Shown here: one piece after another, positions 1 through 42,996 of the stretch
Numbering within the stretch: position 1 is the first letter of the stretch
Layout: the number at the start of each line of letters is the position of its first letter
DNA from: Desulfatirhabdium butyrativorans DSM 18734
GTDB lineage: Bacteria > Desulfobacterota > Desulfobacteria > Desulfobacterales > Desulfatirhabdiaceae
Length of the DNA stretch: 64,000 nucleotides
Assembly (NCBI RefSeq): GCF_000429925.1
Contig: NZ_KE386986.1
Location: 150,522-214,521 of the forward strand
Reading direction: 5' to 3'
Translations under genes and position numbers: made by a program
Notes under the pieces: model-generated
Told to the model about the DNA's origin: nothing
Databases searched by the model: none
Seen by the model: the letters and a program-made list of their open reading frames with translations, nothing else

Positions 1-132
1 GCCCACGAAGTGGGCACTTAACGCGCACGCAGTGCGCAAATGACGGCCACGCAGTGGCCACCTGACGGCTGCGCAGCAGCCACATGACGCCCACGCAGTG
101 GGCACTTAACGCGCACGCAGTGGGCACTTGAC
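1..132. repeat. Mini-hairpin module array A (about 6 modules, cut by window edge)
   Basis: Six consecutive modules of about 22 bp. Each has a palindrome with a 3-nt loop followed by a heptamer of the form ACNTGAC or ACTTAAC. Stems seen on the plus strand are GCCCAC/GTGGGC, GCGCAC/GTGCGC, GGCCAC/GTGGCC and GGCTGC/GCAGCC, with loops GAA (first) or GCA (others). The last module is imperfect (GCGCAC with GTGGGC). The array ends one base before the stop codon of the response regulator gene on the minus strand, so it lies immediately 3' of that gene. The array may continue beyond the window. Confidence 0.9.
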
Positions 133-133
133 A

Positions 134-499
134 TTAATGGATGTATTTCCGGATTTGATCCACAAATGTCTCCGGATCGATGGGCTTTTCGATGTATCCG
201 GTGGCGCCTGCTGCCAGGATTCGTTCCCGGTCTCCCGTCATGGCATAGGATGTGACCGCAATGATGGGCACATCCGATAGCTCCGGATGCCGCTTGAGCT
301 CCTCGGCCACGGCGTAGCCATCCATTTCGGGAAGCTGAATATCGAGCAGGATGGCCCTGGGTTTCAGACGCAGCGCCTCGTCGACACCCTGGCGTCCGTT
401 TTCGGCGCCGATAATCGAAAACCCATTTTTTTCGAGCAAGAACCGCATCATATAGAAATTCTGAGCATTGTCCTCGATGATCAGCAAATGGTCGCTCAT
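134..499 (-). CDS. Single-domain response regulator (CheY-like receiver)
   Basis: A 121-residue stand-alone receiver domain with no output domain. The acidic pocket is E9-D10, the phospho-acceptor is D53 (LLDIQLPEMDG), the switch Thr is T83 and the conserved Lys is K105 (EKP). Its start overlaps the end of the upstream histidine kinase gene by 4 bp (ATGA), so the two are probably translationally coupled and form a cognate pair. With no DNA-binding domain it most likely acts by protein-protein contact or as a phosphorelay intermediate. The gene is followed at once by hairpin array A. Confidence 0.93.
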   Translation of the reverse strand: MSDHLLIIEDNAQNFYMMRFLLEKNGFSIIGAENGRQGVDEALRLKPRAILLDIQLPEMDGYAVAEELKRHPELSDVPIIAVTSYAMTGDRERILAAGATGYIEKPIDPETFVDQIRKYIH

Positions 500-2634
500 G
501 CGATGATCCTTTCCTCTTGTGCTTCAGGAGGCAGTTTGGGAATCTGTACCGTAAACGTGCTTCCCTGACCCCATTGGCTCTGCACCTGAATGCTGCCGCC
601 CATCATCTCGACCAGTTTCTTGCAAATCGAGAGTCCCAGGCCCGTCCCTTCATGTTTGCGGGACAGTCCGGTATCGATCTGGTGAAAAGGCTGAAAGAGA
701 CCGGGCAGTTCTTCTGGCCGGATGCCGATTCCGGTGTCGGAAACCGAAAAGCGGTATTCGTTTCCGATTGCATGGCAGGAAACACGGATGTTTCCCTTTT
801 CCGTGAACTTGACCGCATTGTTGAGCAGATTGAGAAAAACCTGTTCCAGCCGGCGTTGATCCGTGACGATGTCGCCGACATGACGGTCGATCTCCAGCCC
901 CAGATCGATCCCTTTCTTTTCGGCCAGGGGGGCAACCAGCTTGAGCGTTTTCTCGATGGCATCGCGCAGATTGAAGGAAGCCCGGGCCAGGGAGAACTGG
1001 CCCGCCTCGATTTTGGAGATGTCGAGCACATCGTTGATCAGTGCCAGAAGATGGCGGGAGCTTGTCTGCACCATGCCCATCTGTTTTTTCTGCTCTTCGT
1101 TGAGGGGGCCAGCCAGGCCCTGGAGCAGGATGCCGGTAAACCCGATGATCGAGTTGAGGGGCGTGCGCAATTCGTGGCTCATGGTGGCCAGAAAGGCGGA
1201 CTTGAGGCGATCCGCAGACTCGGCCCGCTCCTTGGCGACGAGCAGCTCGGCCGTGCGCTCCGCAACCCGCTGCTCCAGAACCTCGGCGTTTTGGCGCAGC
1301 TCTTCATTGAGCATGAGAATCCGCCGATCCGCCAATACACGATCGGTGATATCGGAGCCGATGCTGAGGATCTCGATCAGTTGCCCCTGATCATCGAAGA
1401 GCATCTTGTTGCGCCAGTCGATCCAGACCCTTTCGCCGTTACGACGGACGTTTTCGTTGATATGGTGTTCAAATTTTACAGGATCGGCCAGGATATCCGC
1501 CATCAGCGATCCAAGATACCTTCCGGAGCTTTCGGTTTCCGGGAGGATGGTTTCGAGCAGACTTTTTCCGAGAATTTCCGATTCTGAATAACCGAAGAAA
1601 TCCAGACCGAATTCGTTGATGAAGGTGATTTTGCCATCGATGGAAAAACGAATGATGATGCTGTTGGCCAGGGTTACCAGCTCCCGGTATTTCTGTTCGC
1701 TTTGGTGCAGGGTCTGGTTCAGCTCCCGCAGTTCGCGGGTGCGCTCGTTGACCTTTGCCTTCAGGATGAGGCTGCCAGCGCCACTCAGCAGAAGCGCAAC
1801 CCCTGCGACGAGAGCGCTGATCCAAACCCATGCGGGCAGGGCGAACTGGACAGGTTCCGAAGTCCACCGTTTCAAGGATCGGTAATAGACCGAATCGGGG
1901 TCCTGCTTCATACTGGTCAACCGGGCGTCGATGGCGGCAAGCAGGGTTTGATTGCGATCTTTTGGGGCCGCAAAAAAGAGGTTGGATGGCTCGAAAATGA
2001 CCGATGTATCTTCCAGGCCATATTGTTTGACGTGCATCATGCCATAGAAACGGTTGGTAATGGCTGCGTCGGCTTCGCCGCGAGCCACCATTTCGAAAGA
2101 AGCCTGGTAATCCGGCAGCGGAACGAGAGTGACGTGCAGCCCGAAACCTTCCGCCAGCCGGCTGAAGGAATCCTGCTGTACCGATCGCTCCAGCACGACG
2201 ATGCGCTTTCCGGCAAGATCCAGAATCGATTGAATCTTGCTGCCTTTTCGCGCGTAGATTTGATACCAGGAAGAGAGCACCGGTACGGATGGAAAGGAAA
2301 ATATTGTTTCCCGTTCGGCCGAATGAGCGACATCGGGCATCAAATCGATTTCGCCCCGTTGAAGGCGATCCAGACCCTCGCCCCATGTGCCGGGGACATA
2401 CTGGATTTCCCAGTCTTCATCCCTGGCAATGGATTCGATTAGATCGGCAAAGATGCCGGCGGCTTTTCCGAATGGATCGGTAAAGATCTTGGGGGCGTTC
2501 TCGTACAGGCCGACTTTGACGATCCGGTTCGGCGCAGCGGTAACATCGGCCCCGGGCAGGAATACCAAGGACAGAACGAGAACCACAAACAAACCAACGA
2601 TGGACCGGCAGAGCGAATTCAACGAATGAATCAT
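496..2634 (-). CDS. Sensor histidine kinase with periplasmic solute-binding (SBP_bac_3) domain and PAS
   Basis: A 712-residue membrane kinase. Residues 1-34 are a signal or anchor segment. Residues about 37-262 resemble a type-3 periplasmic solute-binding domain (begins VGLYENAPKI; contains GEADAAITN). A transmembrane helix spans about 268-291, then a coiled linker and a PAS domain at about 315-432. The HisKA motif is SHELRTPLN with H487, followed by a HATPase with the N-box near 602-610, DTGIGI at 633-638 and GTGLGLS at 663-669. This layout (BvgS/EvgS-like sensor without the attached receiver) suggests direct sensing of a small polar ligand in the periplasm. The receiver is encoded separately by the overlapping downstream gene. 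The ligand cannot be told from sequence. Confidence 0.93.
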   Translation of the reverse strand: MIHSLNSLCRSIVGLFVVLVLSLVFLPGADVTAAPNRIVKVGLYENAPKIFTDPFGKAAGIFADLIESIARDEDWEIQYVPGTWGEGLDRLQRGEIDLMPDVAHSAERETIFSFPSVPVLSSWYQIYARKGSKIQSILDLAGKRIVVLERSVQQDSFSRLAEGFGLHVTLVPLPDYQASFEMVARGEADAAITNRFYGMMHVKQYGLEDTSVIFEPSNLFFAAPKDRNQTLLAAIDARLTSMKQDPDSVYYRSLKRWTSEPVQFALPAWVWISALVAGVALLLSGAGSLILKAKVNERTRELRELNQTLHQSEQKYRELVTLANSIIIRFSIDGKITFINEFGLDFFGYSESEILGKSLLETILPETESSGRYLGSLMADILADPVKFEHHINENVRRNGERVWIDWRNKMLFDDQGQLIEILSIGSDITDRVLADRRILMLNEELRQNAEVLEQRVAERTAELLVAKERAESADRLKSAFLATMSHELRTPLNSIIGFTGILLQGLAGPLNEEQKKQMGMVQTSSRHLLALINDVLDISKIEAGQFSLARASFNLRDAIEKTLKLVAPLAEKKGIDLGLEIDRHVGDIVTDQRRLEQVFLNLLNNAVKFTEKGNIRVSCHAIGNEYRFSVSDTGIGIRPEELPGLFQPFHQIDTGLSRKHEGTGLGLSICKKLVEMMGGSIQVQSQWGQGSTFTVQIPKLPPEAQEERIIA

Positions 2635-2659
2635 CCCTCACCTCCTCAGACCAATCCCC

Positions 2660-2917
2660 GACGCCCACGAAGTGGCCACCTGACGCTGCGAAGCAGCACC
2701 TGACGCCCACGAAGTGGGCACTTGACGGCTGCGAAGCAGCCACTTGACGCGCACGCAGTGCGCACCTGACGTCGCATCGCGACACCTGACGGCCGCTTGC
2801 GGCCACCTGACGCTGCGCAGCAGCACCTGACGCCCACGAAGTGGGCACTTGACGGCTGCGAAGCAGCCACTTGACGCGCACGCAGTGCGCACCTGACGTC
2901 GCGCAGCGACACCTGAC
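2660..2917. repeat. Mini-hairpin module array B (12 modules)
   Basis: Twelve modules separated by ACCTGAC or ACTTGAC. In plus-strand order the stems begin GCCCA, GCTGC, GCCCA, GGCTG, GCGCA, GTCGC, GGCCGC, GCTGC, GCCCA, GGCTG, GCGCA, GTCGC. Modules 2-6 and 8-12 have the same order, so a five-module block starting at 2685 recurs 127 bp later at 2812. Loops are GAA or GCA, apart from the TT-loop GGCCGC/GCGGCC module and one GTCGC module with an altered loop. The array starts five bases after the stop of the Sua5-like gene and ends 25 bp before the kinase start codon, so it separates two co-oriented minus-strand genes. Confidence 0.95.
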
Positions 2918-2922
2918 AATTT

Positions 2923-3534
2923 TTACTCCCCGAATATCCCGACCTCCCCAAGACCTGCCCGGATGACCAGCGGCGTGTCGTCGATCAGGGAGATGACGCT
3001 CGATGGTTTTCCGGGGACCGGCCCGCCGTCGATGACCAGATCGAGCTGTTTGCCATAGCGGTCATGGAGCAGGGAAGGATTGAAAAATATTTCACCGTCT
3101 GGCGTTGCGGCGCTGGTGGAAATGATCGGATTCCCCAGGGCTTTCACGATCTCGATGCTGATCGGATGATCCGGCACGCGGATACCGGCCGTTTTCCGAC
3201 GGGTCAGCATCATCTTGGGAACTTTCTTCGATCCTTCGAGGATGAAGGTGTACGGGCCGGGGAGCAGCCGTTTCATGGTCTTGTAAGCATAGTTGGAAAC
3301 CTTGGCGTAGTCGCTGATGTGCTTGAGATCTGAACAGATGAAACTGAAGGGTTTGCCCGGATCGCGCTGTTTCAACTGATAGATGCGCTGGATGGCCTTC
3401 TTGTTCATGATGTCACAGCCGATGCCGTAAAATGTGTCTGTCGGATAGGCGATGACGCCGCCTTCAAGCAAGAGGTCGACGACCTGCTGGATCAGTCTGG
3501 GCTGGGGATTGACGGGATTGATTTCGATGAGCAT
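2923..3534 (-). CDS. Sua5/YciO/YrdC/YwlC family protein (threonylcarbamoyl-AMP synthase-like)
   Basis: A 203-residue protein of the family whose TsaC/Sua5 members make L-threonylcarbamoyl-AMP from Thr, bicarbonate and ATP for t6A37 of tRNA. The N-terminal GGVIAYPTDTFYGIGCD segment and the downstream KPFSFICSDL and LLPGPYTFIL motifs are diagnostic of the YrdC fold. The sequence is closer in style to YciO, whose activity is less certain, so I leave the symbol empty. The start is the ATG at 3534, preceded by AGGAAAG. An open frame 15 codons longer exists but those codons come from hairpin array C. The gene lies between arrays B and C. Confidence 0.88.
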   Translation of the reverse strand: MLIEINPVNPQPRLIQQVVDLLLEGGVIAYPTDTFYGIGCDIMNKKAIQRIYQLKQRDPGKPFSFICSDLKHISDYAKVSNYAYKTMKRLLPGPYTFILEGSKKVPKMMLTRRKTAGIRVPDHPISIEIVKALGNPIISTSAATPDGEIFFNPSLLHDRYGKQLDLVIDGGPVPGKPSSVISLIDDTPLVIRAGLGEVGIFGE

Positions 3535-3552
3535 GCGTTCTTTCCTGGAGTT

Positions 3553-3830
3553 GTCAGGTGCGCACTTCGTGCGCGTCAAGTGCTGCTGCGCAGCGTCAGG
3601 TGTCGCTTCGCGACGTCAGGTGCGCACTGCGTGCGCGTCATGTGGCCACTGCGTGGCCGTCAGGTGCTGCTTCGCAGCGTCAGGAGTCGCTTCGCGACGT
3701 CAGGTGCGCACTGCGTGCGCGTCAGGTGGCCGCAAGCGGCCGTCAGGTGCTGCTTCGCAGCGTCATGAGTCGCTTCGCGACGTCAGGTGCGCACTGCGTG
3801 CGCGTCAGGTGCTGCGGAGCAGCCGTCAGG
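3553..3830. repeat. Mini-hairpin module array C (13 modules, inverted relative to A and B)
   Basis: Thirteen modules written on the plus strand as GTCAGGT plus palindrome, so the GAA/GCA loops are on the minus strand. The GTCGC, GCGCAC and GCTGC words recur in similar local order, with GGCCAC/GTGGCC or GGCCGC/GCGGCC modules between. The heptamer varies as GTCAAGT, GTCATGT and GTCAGGA. The array starts 18 bp upstream of the Sua5-like start codon and ends five bases before the stop codon of the HAD hydrolase gene. It therefore fills almost the whole gap between two co-oriented genes. Confidence 0.95.
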
Positions 3831-5599: not shown

Positions 5600-5800
5600 C
5601 CATGCAGCCGGGGTTGCACCCCGGTGGATGAAAGTCGCGGGAGCGGACATCCATGGGAATAGGCTGCATCCGCTTTCTTCTGACTTCTGACTTCTGACTT
5701 CTGACTTCTGACTCCTGATATTCGACTTTCGTAGGAATCGCTCATTAAACCGGGGTTTCACCCCGGTTCATGAAAGTCGCTGGGGCGACTTCCTTAAGGG
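5600..5800. repeat. Composite dispersed repeat with stem-loops and 7-bp tandem units (6 units)
   Basis: Consists of a stem-loop (CCGGGG/CCCCGG at 5608-5624), a conserved stretch (ATGAAAGTCGC then CATCCGCTTTCTTC), six tandem heptamers at 5678-5719 (five TTCTGAC and a final TCCTGAT), a tail (ATTCGACTTTCGTAGGAAT) and a second stem-loop AACCGGGG-TTTCA-CCCCGGTT at 5748-5768. The same arrangement with different heptamer numbers recurs near 10.0, 10.4, 28.6 and 42.9 kb. It lies between uvrB and the kinase-like gene, both on the minus strand. Confidence 0.9.
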
Positions 5801-5828: not shown

Positions 5829-5890
5829 ACTGCCGACTGCCCACTGCCGACTGCCCACTGCCCACTGCCCACTGCCGACTACGCACTGCC
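5829..5890. repeat. 7-bp tandem array, ACTGCCS family (7 clean units)
   Basis: Seven uninterrupted ACTGCCG/ACTGCCC units at 5829-5877, then two degenerate units. The flank before the array (GACTGTCGCCCTACGGT) resembles the flank of the 28.7-kb array. The rest of the 5572-6002 gap between the kinase-like gene and uvrB shows no gene that I can support. Confidence 0.9.
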
Positions 5891-9951: not shown

Positions 9952-9978
9952 GTGAAAAGCAGGAGTCAGGGGGCAGGA

Positions 9979-10065
<87 letters not shown>

Positions 10066-10083: not shown

Positions 10084-10195
10084 CGATTACGACAACGACA
10101 ACGATTACGACAACGACAACGATAACGACAACGATAACGACAACGATAACGATGACGACAACGATGACGACAACGATAACGATGACGACAACGAT
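10084..10195. repeat. Hexamer tandem array ACGANN (about 18 units)
   Basis: About 18 consecutive six-base units. The first four positions are ACGA and the last two vary (TT, CA, TA, TG). The same array type occurs at 20.9 and 22.5 kb. Six-base periodicity keeps several reading frames open and produces meaningless two-residue protein repeats, which I do not call as genes. Confidence 0.92.
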
Positions 10196-10393
10196 TCACC
10201 CCCACGTCGCTGGAGAGAGGGGGGCGACTGCTGCAGGAACTGTTCATGGCGAAGGTCGCTATTCCCGGAGCCAATTGCAAAAGTCCTCCTGTGTCATTCG
10301 GGCGAAAGCCGGAATCCAGTTCTGTGGTGGCGGGATTTTGACAGGTTCTGGATCCTGGCTTTCGCCGGGGTGACGGGCTGCACTGCCCACTGG

Positions 10394-16716: not shown

Positions 16717-16889
16717 CCGCATGACGCAGCGAAGCAGCACCTGACGTCGCGAAGCGACACCTGACGGCCGCTTGCGGCCCCTGACGCCCACGAAGTGGGC
16801 ACATGACGCTGCGAAGCAGCACCTGACGTCGCGAAGCGACACCTGACGGCCGCTTGCGGCCCCTGACGCCCACGAAGTGGGCACATGAC
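16717..16889. repeat. Mini-hairpin module array D (8 modules) between proB and proA
   Basis: Eight modules in the order GCAGC*, GTCGC, GGCCGC, GCCCAC, GCTGC, GTCGC, GGCCGC, GCCCAC (first one imperfect). A four-module block starting at 16726 is repeated from 16808, with an 82-bp period. Loops on the plus strand are GAA, or TT in the GGCCGC module. Heptamers are ACCTGAC and ACATGAC, shortened to CCTGAC after GGCCGC. The array begins directly at the proB stop codon and ends 23 bp before the proA start. Confidence 0.95.
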
Positions 16890-19244: not shown

Positions 19245-20787
19245 TCGTGTATGCATGCTGATGATCCTGGACGGGTGCGGTATTCGCCCGCAACGGGAAA
19301 ACAACGCCATCGCAATGGCAAAAACGCCGAACCTCGATGCGCTGAAGGCCCGTTACCCCCATACGCAGCTTCTGGCCTCCGGCGAGGCGGTCGGACTCCC
19401 CGGGGGGATCATGGGCAATTCCGAAGTCGGCCATCTGAACATCGGCGCAGGCAGGATCGTCTACCAGGATCTGATGCGGATCAATGTGGCCATCCGGGAT
19501 CGGTCCTTTTTCGAAAACCCCGTGCTGAAGGCCACGCTGCAAACCATCCGTTCGACGAAAGGATCGCGGCTGCACCTGATGGGGCTGGTGTCGAACGGCG
19601 GGGTGCACAGCGACATCCAGCATCTGTTCGCCCTGCTCGATATGGCGCGGCAGAACAGTATTCAACAGGTATTCGTTCATGCGATCCTGGATGGCCGTGA
19701 TACCCCACCGGACAGCGGTATGGGTTTTGTCAAGCAGCTCAAGGAGCATATCTGCAAGCACAATTACGGCGATATCGCATCGGTCTGCGGCAGGTTTTAT
19801 GCCATGGATCGGGACAAGCGCTGGGACCGGATCGAAAAAGCCTACCGGCTCTACACCCAGGGGACGGGGACGCCGGAAACCGACCCGGTCGAAGCGGTAA
19901 AAAGGGCTTACGGCCGCGGGGAGACCGATGAATTCGTCACGCCTGTCGCCATTGCGGACAAGGGCGGCCATCCGATCGGCGTCCTTCAGGATGGGGATGG
20001 GGTGATCTTTTTCAATTTTCGTGCGGATCGGGCAAGGGAAATTTCGTCGGCGCTCGCCCTGCCTGAAGCCGGGGACATCCCCTTCGACCGCTCTTCCATG
20101 CCAGCCCTGAGCACCTATGTCTGCATGACCCGGTATGACGAGCATTTCCCGTTCCCGGTCGCTTTCGGTCCGGAACATCTCAGGGATATTCTGGGCGAGG
20201 TGGTGAGCCGTGAGGGTATCCGGCAACTGCGGATCGCGGAAACCGAAAAATATGCCCATGTGACCTATTTTTTCAACGGCGGTGAGGAAAAGCCATTCGA
20301 TCTCGAGGATCGGTGCCTCATTCCCTCTCCGCGGGATGTGCCGACCTATGATTACAAACCCGAAATGAGCGCTCCAGCCGTTGCGGAGGAAGTGTTGAAG
20401 CGGCTCGAAAGCCGGCAATATGGCCTGGTTGTGCTGAATTTCGCCAATATGGACATGGTCGGGCATACGGGCATTCTGCCGGCGGCCATCCGGGCGGTGG
20501 AAACCGTGGACGGCTGTGTCGGTAAAATCGCCGATTGCATCCGTTCCATGGGCGGGGTCCTGATGGTCACGGCGGACCATGGGAATGCCGAAACCATGGT
20601 GGATGAAAACGGCACCCCCCACACGGCGCATACCCTGAACCCGGTTCCCTTCATCCTGGTGGACGAAACCCGGATCGGCGCGAAGCTCCGGGAAGGAATC
20701 CTCGCCGATATCGCACCGACCATCCTGCAGGTGATGGGTATCCATCAGCCTTCGGCCATGACCGGGAAGTCGCTGTTGGGGCAGTGA
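19231..20787 (+). CDS. gpmI: 2,3-bisphosphoglycerate-independent phosphoglycerate mutase
   Basis: A 518-residue alkaline-phosphatase-superfamily enzyme that interconverts 3- and 2-phosphoglycerate with two metal ions. Metal ligand D14 is in LMILDG and the phospho-enzyme Ser is S64 in MGNSEVGHLN. DGRDTPPDSG, HNYGDIASVCGRFYAMDRDKRW and the late VTADHGNAE metal site are intact. The start ATG at 19231 has GGAG six bases upstream; a GTG directly before it is the alternative. It overlaps the rsfS end by 14 bp. Confidence 0.97.
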   Translation: MKTTDRVCMLMILDGCGIRPQRENNAIAMAKTPNLDALKARYPHTQLLASGEAVGLPGGIMGNSEVGHLNIGAGRIVYQDLMRINVAIRDRSFFENPVLKATLQTIRSTKGSRLHLMGLVSNGGVHSDIQHLFALLDMARQNSIQQVFVHAILDGRDTPPDSGMGFVKQLKEHICKHNYGDIASVCGRFYAMDRDKRWDRIEKAYRLYTQGTGTPETDPVEAVKRAYGRGETDEFVTPVAIADKGGHPIGVLQDGDGVIFFNFRADRAREISSALALPEAGDIPFDRSSMPALSTYVCMTRYDEHFPFPVAFGPEHLRDILGEVVSREGIRQLRIAETEKYAHVTYFFNGGEEKPFDLEDRCLIPSPRDVPTYDYKPEMSAPAVAEEVLKRLESRQYGLVVLNFANMDMVGHTGILPAAIRAVETVDGCVGKIADCIRSMGGVLMVTADHGNAETMVDENGTPHTAHTLNPVPFILVDETRIGAKLREGILADIAPTILQVMGIHQPSAMTGKSLLGQ

Positions 20788-20793
20788 GCTGTC

Positions 20794-20822
20794 GGCAGTG
20801 GGCAGTGGGCAGTGGGCAGTGT
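20794..20822. repeat. Short 7-bp tandem array, GGCAGTG family (4 units)
   Basis: Four GGCAGTG-like units right after the gpmI stop, the reverse-complement form of the ACTGCCS arrays at 5.8 and 28.7 kb. Confidence 0.8.
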
Positions 20823-20895: not shown

Positions 20896-20977
20896 AATCG
20901 TTGTCGTGATCGTGATCGTGATCGTGATCGTGATCGTTGTCGTGATCGTTGTCGTAATCGTAATCGTAATCGTAATT
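20896..20977. repeat. Hexamer tandem array (reverse form of ACGANN, about 13 units)
   Basis: Units read CGTGAT, CGTTGT and CGTAAT on the plus strand, the complement of ACGANN with NN = TC, CA and TT. Flanks on both sides (GGGAGGGGCCC; CACCCCGACGGAAGCCGG) resemble degenerate spacer sequence and carry no gene that I can support. Confidence 0.9.
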
Positions 20978-22500: not shown

Positions 22501-22572
22501 ACGATTACGATTACGACAACGACAACGACAACGATAACGACAACGATAACGACAACGACAACGACAACGACT
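22501..22572. repeat. Hexamer tandem array ACGANN (12 units) upstream of pstC
   Basis: Twelve units of ACGANN (NN = TT, CA, TA), ending 47 bp before the pstC start codon. An ATG before the array is in frame with pstC, so a read-through product with an Asp/Asn repeat leader is formally possible, but it has no family support. Confidence 0.92.
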
Positions 22573-28526: not shown

Positions 28527-28581
28527 TGAGAATGTCGAGGTAGGCGCTGCGGAGACGATCGGTTTTTAACGATAATCCCCC

Positions 28582-28690
28582 ATGAACCGGGGTTTCACCC
28601 CGGTTCATGAAAGTCGCAGGAGCAAGCTACAAAAAATGGGAGCCATCCGCTTTCTTCTGACTCCTGACTTCTGACTCCTGATATTCGACC
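28582..28690. repeat. Composite dispersed repeat (4 heptamers)
   Basis: A perfect 11-bp stem ATGAACCGGGG with loop TTTCA (28582-28608), then AAAGTCGCAGGAGCAAGC, CATCCGCTTTCTTC and four heptamers at 28655-28682, then a TATTCGAC tail. It is nearly identical to the copy at 10.4 kb across the conserved core. It lies between the convergent phoU and amino-acid binding protein genes. Confidence 0.9.
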
Positions 28691-28728: not shown

Positions 28729-28826
28729 ACTGCCGACTGCCCACTGCCGACTGCCCACTGCCGACTGCCCACTGCCGACTGCCCACTGCCGACTGCCGAC
28801 TGCCCACTGCCCACTGCCCACTGCCC
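28729..28826. repeat. 7-bp tandem array, ACTGCCS family (14 units)
   Basis: Exactly 98 bp, equal to 14 units of ACTGCCG or ACTGCCC in an irregular order of the two variants. The left flank CAGTCGCTTTACGGT resembles that of the 5.8-kb array. It ends 14 bp before the stop of the solute-binding protein gene on the opposite strand. The rest of 28527-28839 holds the composite repeat and no gene. Confidence 0.93.
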
Positions 28827-28839
28827 ACTATCCCGGCCT

Positions 28840-39745: not shown

Positions 39746-40465
39746 TTGAGCAGACCCGTCTACCATCGTGTATTGCTGAAGCTGAGCGGAGAAGCCCTGA
39801 TGGGAAATCAGGGCTTCGGCATCGATCCGGAAATGATCCGCTATGTTGCGGAGGAAATTCGCTCTGTCGTTGATCTTGGTGTGCAGATCGCTATCGTGGT
39901 GGGCGGCGGAAATATCTTCCGGGGTATTGCGGCAAGCTCCTTCGGAATGGATCGCACCTCAGCAGACCACATGGGCATGCTGGCCACTGTCATCAACAGC
40001 CTTGCCCTTCAGGATGCGCTCGAGCGAAAAGGGATTACGACCCGGGTGCAAAGCGCCATCGCCATGCATCAGGTGGCCGAACCGTTCATCGTGCGGCGCG
40101 CCATCCGCCACCTGGAAAAAGGGCGGGCCGTGATTTTTGCGGCGGGTACCGGCAACCCGTATTTTACCACCGATACGGCCGCAGCCCTGCGCGCCCAGGA
40201 AATCCATGCCGATATTCTGATGAAGGCCACCAAAGTCGATGGGATATACGATGCCGATCCAAAACTCCATCCCGATGCGTCCTTCATTGCCGAAATCGGC
40301 TATATGGAAGTGTTGGAAAAACAGCTCAAAGTCATGGACATGACGGCCATTTCGCTCGCCATGGACAACCGGCTTCCCTTGGCGGTGTTCAACCTTTCGA
40401 CGGCGGGCAATATCCGCAAAATTGTGTGCGGTGAACGTGCCGGCACCCGGATTGTCGCCAGATAA
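39746..40465 (+). CDS. pyrH: Uridylate kinase (TTG start)
   Basis: A 239-residue UMP kinase of the amino-acid-kinase fold ([39 protein letters not shown]). It starts at TTG 39746, only 4 bp after the tsf stop, with GGGGA upstream. Its stop codon is followed within 3 bases by hairpin array E. Confidence 0.96.
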
Positions 40466-40468
40466 TCT

Positions 40469-40655
40469 GCTGCTTCGCAGCGTCATGTGGCCACTGCGTG
40501 GCCGTCATGTGTCGCTTCGCGACGTCAGGTGCTGCTTCGCAGCGTCATGTGGCCACTGCGTGGCCGTCATGTGTCGCTTCGCGACGTCAGGTGAGCACTG
40601 CGTGCTCGTCATTTGCGCACTTCGTGCGCGTCATGTGCTGGCAAGCGCGCCTGAT
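40469..40655. repeat. Mini-hairpin module array E (about 9 modules) between pyrH and frr
   Basis: On the plus strand: GCTGC, GGCCAC, GTCGC, GCTGC, GGCCAC, GTCGC, GAGCAC, GCGCAC, then a degenerate GCTGGC module. They are separated by GTCATGT, GTCAGGT or GTCATTT, with loops TTC or TGC. The first three modules repeat as a block with a 62-bp period (40469 and 40531). The GAGCAC/GTGCTC module at 40593-40607 is a double change relative to GCGCAC/GTGCGC that preserves pairing. Confidence 0.94.
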
Positions 40656-40725
40656 TCCATGCGGCTCAATCCAGACAAATCGGCTTTTTGTGAAGTCATT
40701 CCTATTCAATTCAGGAGAATCCTCC

Positions 40726-41283
40726 ATGATCGATCTTGTCATCGAAGAAGCCAAAGAAACGATGGGGAAAAGTGTTTCCTCCCTGAAGAATGAGCTGAAA
40801 CGGGTGCGTACCGGTCGAGCCTCGCTTTCGTTGCTGGATGGCATCAAGGTTGATTACTACGGCACATCGACCCCTTTGAACCAGATTGCATCGCTGGCTG
40901 TTCCCGAAAGCCGGCTGATGACCATCCAGCCCTGGGATGTTTCGGTCATCAAGGACATTGAAAAGGCCATCCTCAAGTCCGATCTCGGGCTGACGCCCGG
41001 AAACGACGGAAAGGTTGTCCGGATTTCCGTGCCGCCGCTCACCGAGGAGCGCCGGAAAAGTCTCGTGAAGGTCATCCACAAGATGAGCGAAGAGCACAAG
41101 GTGGCGATTCGCAACATCCGGCGGGAGGCCAACGAACAGCTCAAATCGATGAAAAAAGACGGCGACATTTCCGAAGACGACGCTTTCAAGGCCCAGGAAA
41201 AAATCCAGAAAATGACCGACGATTTCATCAAGATGATCGACGCCGTCTACGCCGAGAAGGAAAAGGAAATCCTTGAGTTCTGA
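40726..41283 (+). CDS. frr: Ribosome recycling factor
   Basis: A 185-residue RRF, standard length. KNELKRVRTGRASLSLLDGIKVDYYG and the C-terminal helix EEHKVAIRNIRREANEQLK are hallmarks. ATG 40726 with CAGGAGAA upstream sets the start. The frame is open further upstream only because it runs through hairpin array E. It overlaps uppS by 11 bp. Confidence 0.97.
   Translation: MIDLVIEEAKETMGKSVSSLKNELKRVRTGRASLSLLDGIKVDYYGTSTPLNQIASLAVPESRLMTIQPWDVSVIKDIEKAILKSDLGLTPGNDGKVVRISVPPLTEERRKSLVKVIHKMSEEHKVAIRNIRREANEQLKSMKKDGDISEDDAFKAQEKIQKMTDDFIKMIDAVYAEKEKEILEF

Positions 41284-42892: not shown

Positions 42893-42996
<104 letters not shown>

Follow-up and report, generated by a model that had tools for sequence, protein, structure and literature searches.

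A double substitution that keeps base pairing is standard evidence for a functional RNA structure. In the gap between pyrH and frr of Desulfatirhabdium butyrativorans DSM 18734, one hairpin differs from a commoner form by what appears to be such a change, which raises the question of what keeps the two arms complementary. The hairpin belongs to a tandem array, E, and our reading, to which a probability of about one half is assigned, is that REP-like arrays of this kind are maintained by arm copying at the DNA level through template switching, together with duplication and deletion of modules. The window referred to below is the whole 64,000-nt stretch of DNA that was analysed.

Array E in the pyrH-frr gap

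39746 to 40465, + strand: pyrH, UMP kinase, flanking gene (TIGR02075, 327 bits)
40469 to 40629, + strand: array E, made up of eight hairpin modules, 13 and 15 nt in length, with 7-nt GTCANNT separators
40468 to 40593, + strand: three-module block of 62 bp in array E, present as an exact tandem duplicate (period 62, 2.0 copies, 100% matches)
40586 to 40592, + strand: separator GTCAGGT preceding the GAGCAC module
40593 to 40607, + strand: hairpin module GAGCAC-TGC-GTGCTC, seventh of the eight hairpins in array E
40615 to 40629, + strand: adjoining hairpin GCGCAC-TTC-GTGCGC, with the common arm word
40726 to 41283, + strand: flanking gene frr, encoding ribosome recycling factor (5' end overrun by the listed ORF, 40498-41283)

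Array E starts 3 nt past the pyrH stop codon. The pyrH-frr gap of ten relatives measures 33-108 bp and lacks the array; hence array E is an insertion in this lineage. In three relatives (L088, L089 and L096), CTCCTGACTTCTG heptamers similar to heptamer repeats of the window (see below) lie in the gap that holds the hairpin array in this genome.

The preliminary description had reported GAGCAC-TGC-GTGCTC at 40593-40607 as a compensatory variant of GCGCAC-TGC-GTGCGC. Its letters and coordinates are exact. Relative to the latter word, the C at arm position 2 is replaced by A and matched by a G to T change in the opposite arm, so that pairing is kept, and GCGCAC is indeed the common arm word, with 14 copies carrying TGC and 7 carrying TTC in arrays across the genome. 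The GCGCAC copy of array E itself, at 40615, is of the TTC and not the TGC form. By chance, a pair of substitutions placed at random in a 12-nt stem would be complementary in 3% of cases. A second copy of the GAGCAC-TGC-GTGCTC 15-mer was found in array C6 (C6:145606-145620), where the neighbours differ from those in array E except for the preceding GTCAGGT. Hence, the copy in array E need not be the product of a local event, and the module does not constitute independent evidence. GAGCAC/GTGCTC is a module type common to two arrays and not demonstrably a mutation within array E.

The identical module and preceding separator in C6 agree with a simpler history, in which recombination between arrays brought an old GAGCAC/GTGCTC word into array E as a complete copy. 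Pairing would then persist through the copying of whole modules, with no compensatory event in array E, and the exact block duplications seen in arrays are in keeping with it. Module shuffling of this kind, acting alone, is regarded as possible rather than probable in view of the findings on arm words given below.

Related arrays in the window and genome

1 to 125, - strand: terminal part of another such hairpin array (10 modules), which continues upstream of the window
2663 to 2910, - strand: hairpin array, 12 modules, with a 127-bp higher-order repeat
3560 to 3823, + strand: hairpin array, 13 modules, opposite to both flanking genes, the last module with an inverted-type loop (GGA)
16726 to 16882, - strand: hairpin array, 8 modules, between proB and proA and antisense to both

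The genome contains about 18 intergenic tandem arrays of such modules, and pattern search located arrays on contigs C6, C8, C10, C12, C31, C67 (nine places), C69, C70 and C71. The module grammar is strict: a 7-nt separator GTCANNT precedes one of three hairpin types, namely 13 nt with a stem of 5 bp and a loop of 3 nt, 15 nt with a stem of 6 bp and likewise a loop of 3 nt, or 14 nt with the sequence GGCCG-CNNG-CGGCC. Parsing over 15 array loci gave 194 candidates, 190 of which are modules. These 190 copies of a 20-22 bp unit are intergenic, and the arrays often lie no more than 25 nt from a stop codon. Modules within one array all have the same orientation, with no head-to-head pairs, and the orientation of arrays relative to genes is mixed (sense in pyrH-frr, antisense in proB-proA and at 3560-3823 of the window). 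A coding role of the arrays was rejected, as the unit lengths of 20, 21 and 22 break the frame.

At the start of the window and upstream of it (window 1-3823; C67 149785-154344), four arrays in two orientations are interleaved with genes within 4.6 kb, and one of the four touches an assembly gap. The window further includes heptamer tandem repeats (CTTCTGA, ACTGCCC/ACTGCCG, CAGGAGT and CTGACTC) at 5677-5728, 5829-5890, 9960-10025, 20779-20821, 28654-28681, 28729-28829 and 42964-42995, and hexamer-based tandem repeats (CGATAACGACAA, TCGTGA and ACGACA) at 10084-10196, 20904-20973 and 22513-22571. A long perfect hairpin with the core AACCGGGGTTTCACCCCGGTT and a TTC loop is present in two copies (5747-5767 and 28580-28608).

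Chance or an assembly artefact is already refuted as the origin of the arrays. Some arrays do adjoin gaps of the assembly (runs of N in L050, L051 and L054), but array E is gap-free, the pattern gave 90 matches as compared with none for its reversed-pattern control, and shuffle tests were exceeded (see below). A scan of GTDB genomes found no modules of this type, and 56 further genomes from the order were without an array; CACTKCGTG-N-CACTKCGTG is array-like in this genome alone among 395 of the phylum. A phage or plasmid origin was considered and gave no match, two pattern matches in viral contigs being without an array. The module words were not found in print as a bacterial repeat in the literature searched.

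Pairing and covariation of the stems

Stems are perfect in 177 of the 190 modules genome-wide and comprise 15 different arm words; the parser allowed up to two stem mismatches per candidate, which biases this count upward somewhat, and separator-only segmentation revealed few modules missed through that limit. When right arms were shuffled within module length, a mean of 75.6 and a maximum of 94 perfect stems were obtained (1000 shuffles). Modules of one genome share ancestry, so that stem and loop counts are not independent, and tests on distinct words, 34 of 46 of which are perfect as compared with 9.6 in shuffles (maximum 16), reduce this dependence only partly. Among the 31 distinct 15-mers, 36 cells were changed on both sides (11.5 when shuffled) and the covariation score was 0.538 (0.198 when shuffled), neither value being reached in 500 shuffles. 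Changes on both sides occurred at five of the six pairs, and the signal vanished when the partner was slid by one to three columns.

The excess of paired over single changes by which the preliminary description had proposed to judge its claim is therefore clear across the genome when compared with shuffles. That description read the double change as a sign of selection or copying acting on the folded stem. The data bear out that something acts on the stem, whereas covariation alone cannot separate selection from copying.

The minimum tree of arm words has 13 links, ten of which are single paired changes (five transitions and five transversions). The transversion pairs pass through no G-T intermediate, and the C-G to A-T change of the GAGCAC module is of the transversion type. 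Module shuffling leaves the origin of the 15 perfectly paired arm words unexplained. In words with one mismatch, taken from three genomes (see below) and read on the separator strand, 14 A.C and 11 G.T mismatches were counted; thus G-T is not favoured. The latter count is at odds with selection at the level of RNA, by which arrays would be co-transcribed with genes, the RNA hairpins would stabilise or attenuate the message, and unpaired changes would be purged. Intergenic arrays close to stop codons suit such a role, the predicted RNA folds of the arrays are stable, and published REPs are thought to act partly in this way (PMC3733652). However, Rfam gave no match on array E (E up to 5), the sole Rfam match of the window being a tRNA; relatives have no array at pyrH-frr, and arrays face genes in either direction.

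Loop rule

In this genome, 145 of 154 triloops are TNC or GNA, nearly all of them TNC with any middle base and few GNA, and the closing pair is C-G in 154/154. A TNC loop corresponds to GNA on the opposite strand. All tetraloops are g(CNNG)c, either g(CAAG)c or g(CAGG)c. Of control hairpins outside arrays, from the window and 20 unrelated loci, 12-15% follow the triloop rule. Extraordinary stability as DNA minihairpins has been reported for C-GNA-G triloops (Yoshizawa 1997, as cited in PMC6479982), and g(CNNG)c and c(GNNA)g belong to a set of four motifs obtained by selection for stable DNA tetraloops (Nakano 2002, as cited in PMC5090098). Computed folding energies were equal for the GNA and TNC strands, the models not separating the two; hence, the extra stability of GNA loops rests on the published work.

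Arrays of the same design in unrelated genomes

A search of GTDB genomes with a pattern of two neighbouring hairpins gave 25 places, about four of which are true arrays, and most of the 25 are single hairpins or chance matches in coding sequence. Two foreign genomes, both metagenome assemblies, were followed with separator-only patterns that left stem and loop free. A Kiritimatiellae genome (G445) with TAAGTG separators gave 208 matches as against 0 in the reversed-pattern control, and a Cytophagaceae genome (G446) with TTAGTC separators 91 as against 14. Among the first 100 of the 208 places in the former, 75 stems are perfect, the triloop rule holds in 49/56 with C-G closing in 55/56, and each of the 19 tetraloops is c(TNNC)g, which reads c(GNNA)g on the opposite strand. 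In the latter, the corresponding values are 77/91 for perfect stems, 67/76 for the triloop rule and 76/76 for C-G closing, and covariation in the 13-mers is equally strong. The design thus recurs in two other phyla. Recurrence in three phyla with different separators suggests that the physical stability of single-stranded DNA hairpins, and not descent, defines the class.

In both foreign genomes, a plus array is often followed directly by a minus array (L141, i.e. G445:C147, and L136-L140 and L145 in G446). In one case, what looks like a TAA stop codon is formed by the first letters of a TAAGT separator.

The G445 tetraloops, again among the first 100 of 208 places, fit the DNA rule GNNA in 19/19 cases and the RNA rule GNRA in 3/19, which further counts against selection on RNA, an explanation that we consider unlikely. 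From the lack of G-T tolerance, the mixed orientation and the tetraloops of the DNA rule, we infer that the folded species is single-stranded DNA.

Changes within arrays

The C31 array consists of nine 63-bp units, in which the GCTGC and GGCCG stems are constant throughout, loops alternate between TTC and TGC, and separators vary. One 15-mer has GCACAC/GTGTGC in place of GCCCAC/GTGGGC, a paired C-G to A-T change, and in another, GCTCAC/GTGTGC, that pair is a T.T mismatch. With a single strain, the ancestral states within arrays can only be guessed. The position of GCACAC/GTGTGC among mostly GCCCAC/GTGGGC units speaks against module shuffling alone, though the GCACAC word is also present in C10.

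Mismatched hybrids such as GCCGC-TTC-GCGAC are found in an array where the two parent words are adjacent to each other, which fits deletion between shared 9-bp cores and agrees with the shuffling of modules. Deletion thus creates mismatches, and otherwise the stems are kept perfect by some process or by selection. Uncorrected mismatched modules also persist (GCGCAC/GTGGGC and GCCGC/GCGAC). One clear case of exact loop inversion with the stem kept was found in this genome, GTCGC-TTC-GCGAC to GTCGC-GAA-GCGAC, as well as two further loops of inverted type, GGA and GAT. These inversions favour copying, although they are few (one exact and two inverted-type). The loop rule, this exact inversion and the absence of G-T tolerance together suggest, short of proof, that the process operates on DNA.

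Relation to Y1 transposases

Short extragenic hairpins with a conserved flank recall REPs mobilised by RAYT proteins, where pairing would be kept since the Y1 transposase reads single-stranded hairpins. REPs also have cores of the g(CTTG)c type, e.g. GGGGGCTTGCCCCC, compensatory changes have been reported in the REPIN spacer hairpin (PMC3116915), and Y1 and RAYT-like genes are present in this genome. However, modules were found at none of the six Y1_Tnp loci, three of which end at contig edges, and different hairpins accompany each of the three that were inspected in full. The Cytophagaceae genome has the same architecture with no Y1_Tnp match in an assembly that may be incomplete. The GTAG tag is absent, and each array of D. 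butyrativorans has a single orientation in place of head-to-head pairs. Mobilisation by a RAYT is accordingly an improbable explanation of the pairing.

The RAYT-like gene at L041 784-1990 is followed by its own hairpins (CCAGAGC...GCTCTGG), unlike the modules of the arrays. At L043 64-1806, an hsdM-like type I restriction part and a RAYT-like part share a single open frame, in which GGGCACGGC-GC-GCCGTGCCC palindromes lie within the coding sequence.

Proposed mechanism and its implications

In the template-switching reading, the module, i.e. GTCANNT and a stem of 5-6 bp, in most cases perfect, with a DNA loop of the extra-stable kind (C-TNC-G, equivalent to C-GNA-G, or g(CNNG)c), would fold, as single-stranded DNA in the course of replication or repair, into a hairpin within which the polymerase would switch template and copy one arm onto the other, so that the arms stay complementary. 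A change in a single arm would thereby become a paired change in one step, and the loop would sometimes be inverted. Arrays would expand or contract as whole modules, or blocks of several modules, are duplicated or deleted, and GAGCAC/GTGCTC would be one arm word so produced, common to two arrays. Published reports on template switching describe arms becoming homogenised and spacers inverted (PMC8604942), and stems that arise and are maintained with compensatory changes of several bases (PMC8794818). Selection at the DNA level for hairpin stability, which would leave much the same pattern, is a possible alternative.

More tentatively, the arrays of D. butyrativorans, the Kiritimatiellae, the Cytophagaceae and probably others may form a cross-phylum class of intergenic single-stranded-DNA minihairpin arrays, with lineage-specific separators and one loop rule (C-G-closed GNA triloop, or GNNA/CNNG tetraloop), in which compensatory changes are written by template switching and covariation arises without an RNA function. 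If so, the arrays would be a natural test bed for the production of a covariation signal by template switching alone, and would caution against taking covariation as a sign of RNA function in intergenic repeats.

Comparison with known systems

Two familiar classes can be set aside. CRISPR arrays combine identical repeats with unique spacers, whereas 7-nt separators and recurring hairpins with no unique spacers are found here; and the arrays match no known structured-RNA family in Rfam at the threshold given above. TAACTGA heptamers of marine Beggiatoaceae (PMC4679880) are likewise short intergenic direct repeats, and the window has heptamer arrays too; the part of that source available describes no hairpin modules. 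Paired changes across a stem and loop inversion are shared with template-switch footprints (PMC8794818; PMC8604942), which were described in RNA genes and yeast coding sequence, not in repeat arrays.

The REPINs of Pseudomonas fluorescens (PMC3116915) share compensatory changes on both hairpin sides and, in some cores, g(CTTG)c. However, REPINs are inverted REP pairs with a RAYT, whereas direct tandem modules with no linked RAYT found are present here. REPs of the GTAG type have an unpaired terminal GTAG and flank a RAYT gene; in contrast, the flank is GTCANNT in nearly all modules, and the six Y1_Tnp loci (three at contig edges) carry none. REPs of the CGTC type have 8-9 bp stems with A-T first pairs, 4-5 nt loops and a CCA tail, and clusters of them are rare (PMC3733652), as compared with 5-6 bp stems with mostly G-C first pairs and 3-nt or g(CNNG)c loops in the present modules. 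In most modules, the C at the hairpin end and GTC of the separator together read CGTC, letters that are divided between stem and separator. No dedicated transposase is known for CGTC REPs (PMC3733652), and likewise no Y1 gene found here carries modules.

REPs and BIMEs in general are short, high-copy intergenic stem-loops near gene ends, in which stem variants keep pairing, as here, and clusters and tandem reiteration occur in some REP families (PMC3733652). The present arrays differ in having many different stems per array, strict head-to-tail order and the GTCANNT separator. As palindromic units within 20-40 bp, intergenic and in many copies, the modules are REPs in the broad sense. As they depart from the published descriptions in tag, in the lengths of stem and loop, in tail and in arrangement, we regard them as REP-like, a variant of extragenic palindromic repeats that belongs to neither REP superfamily.
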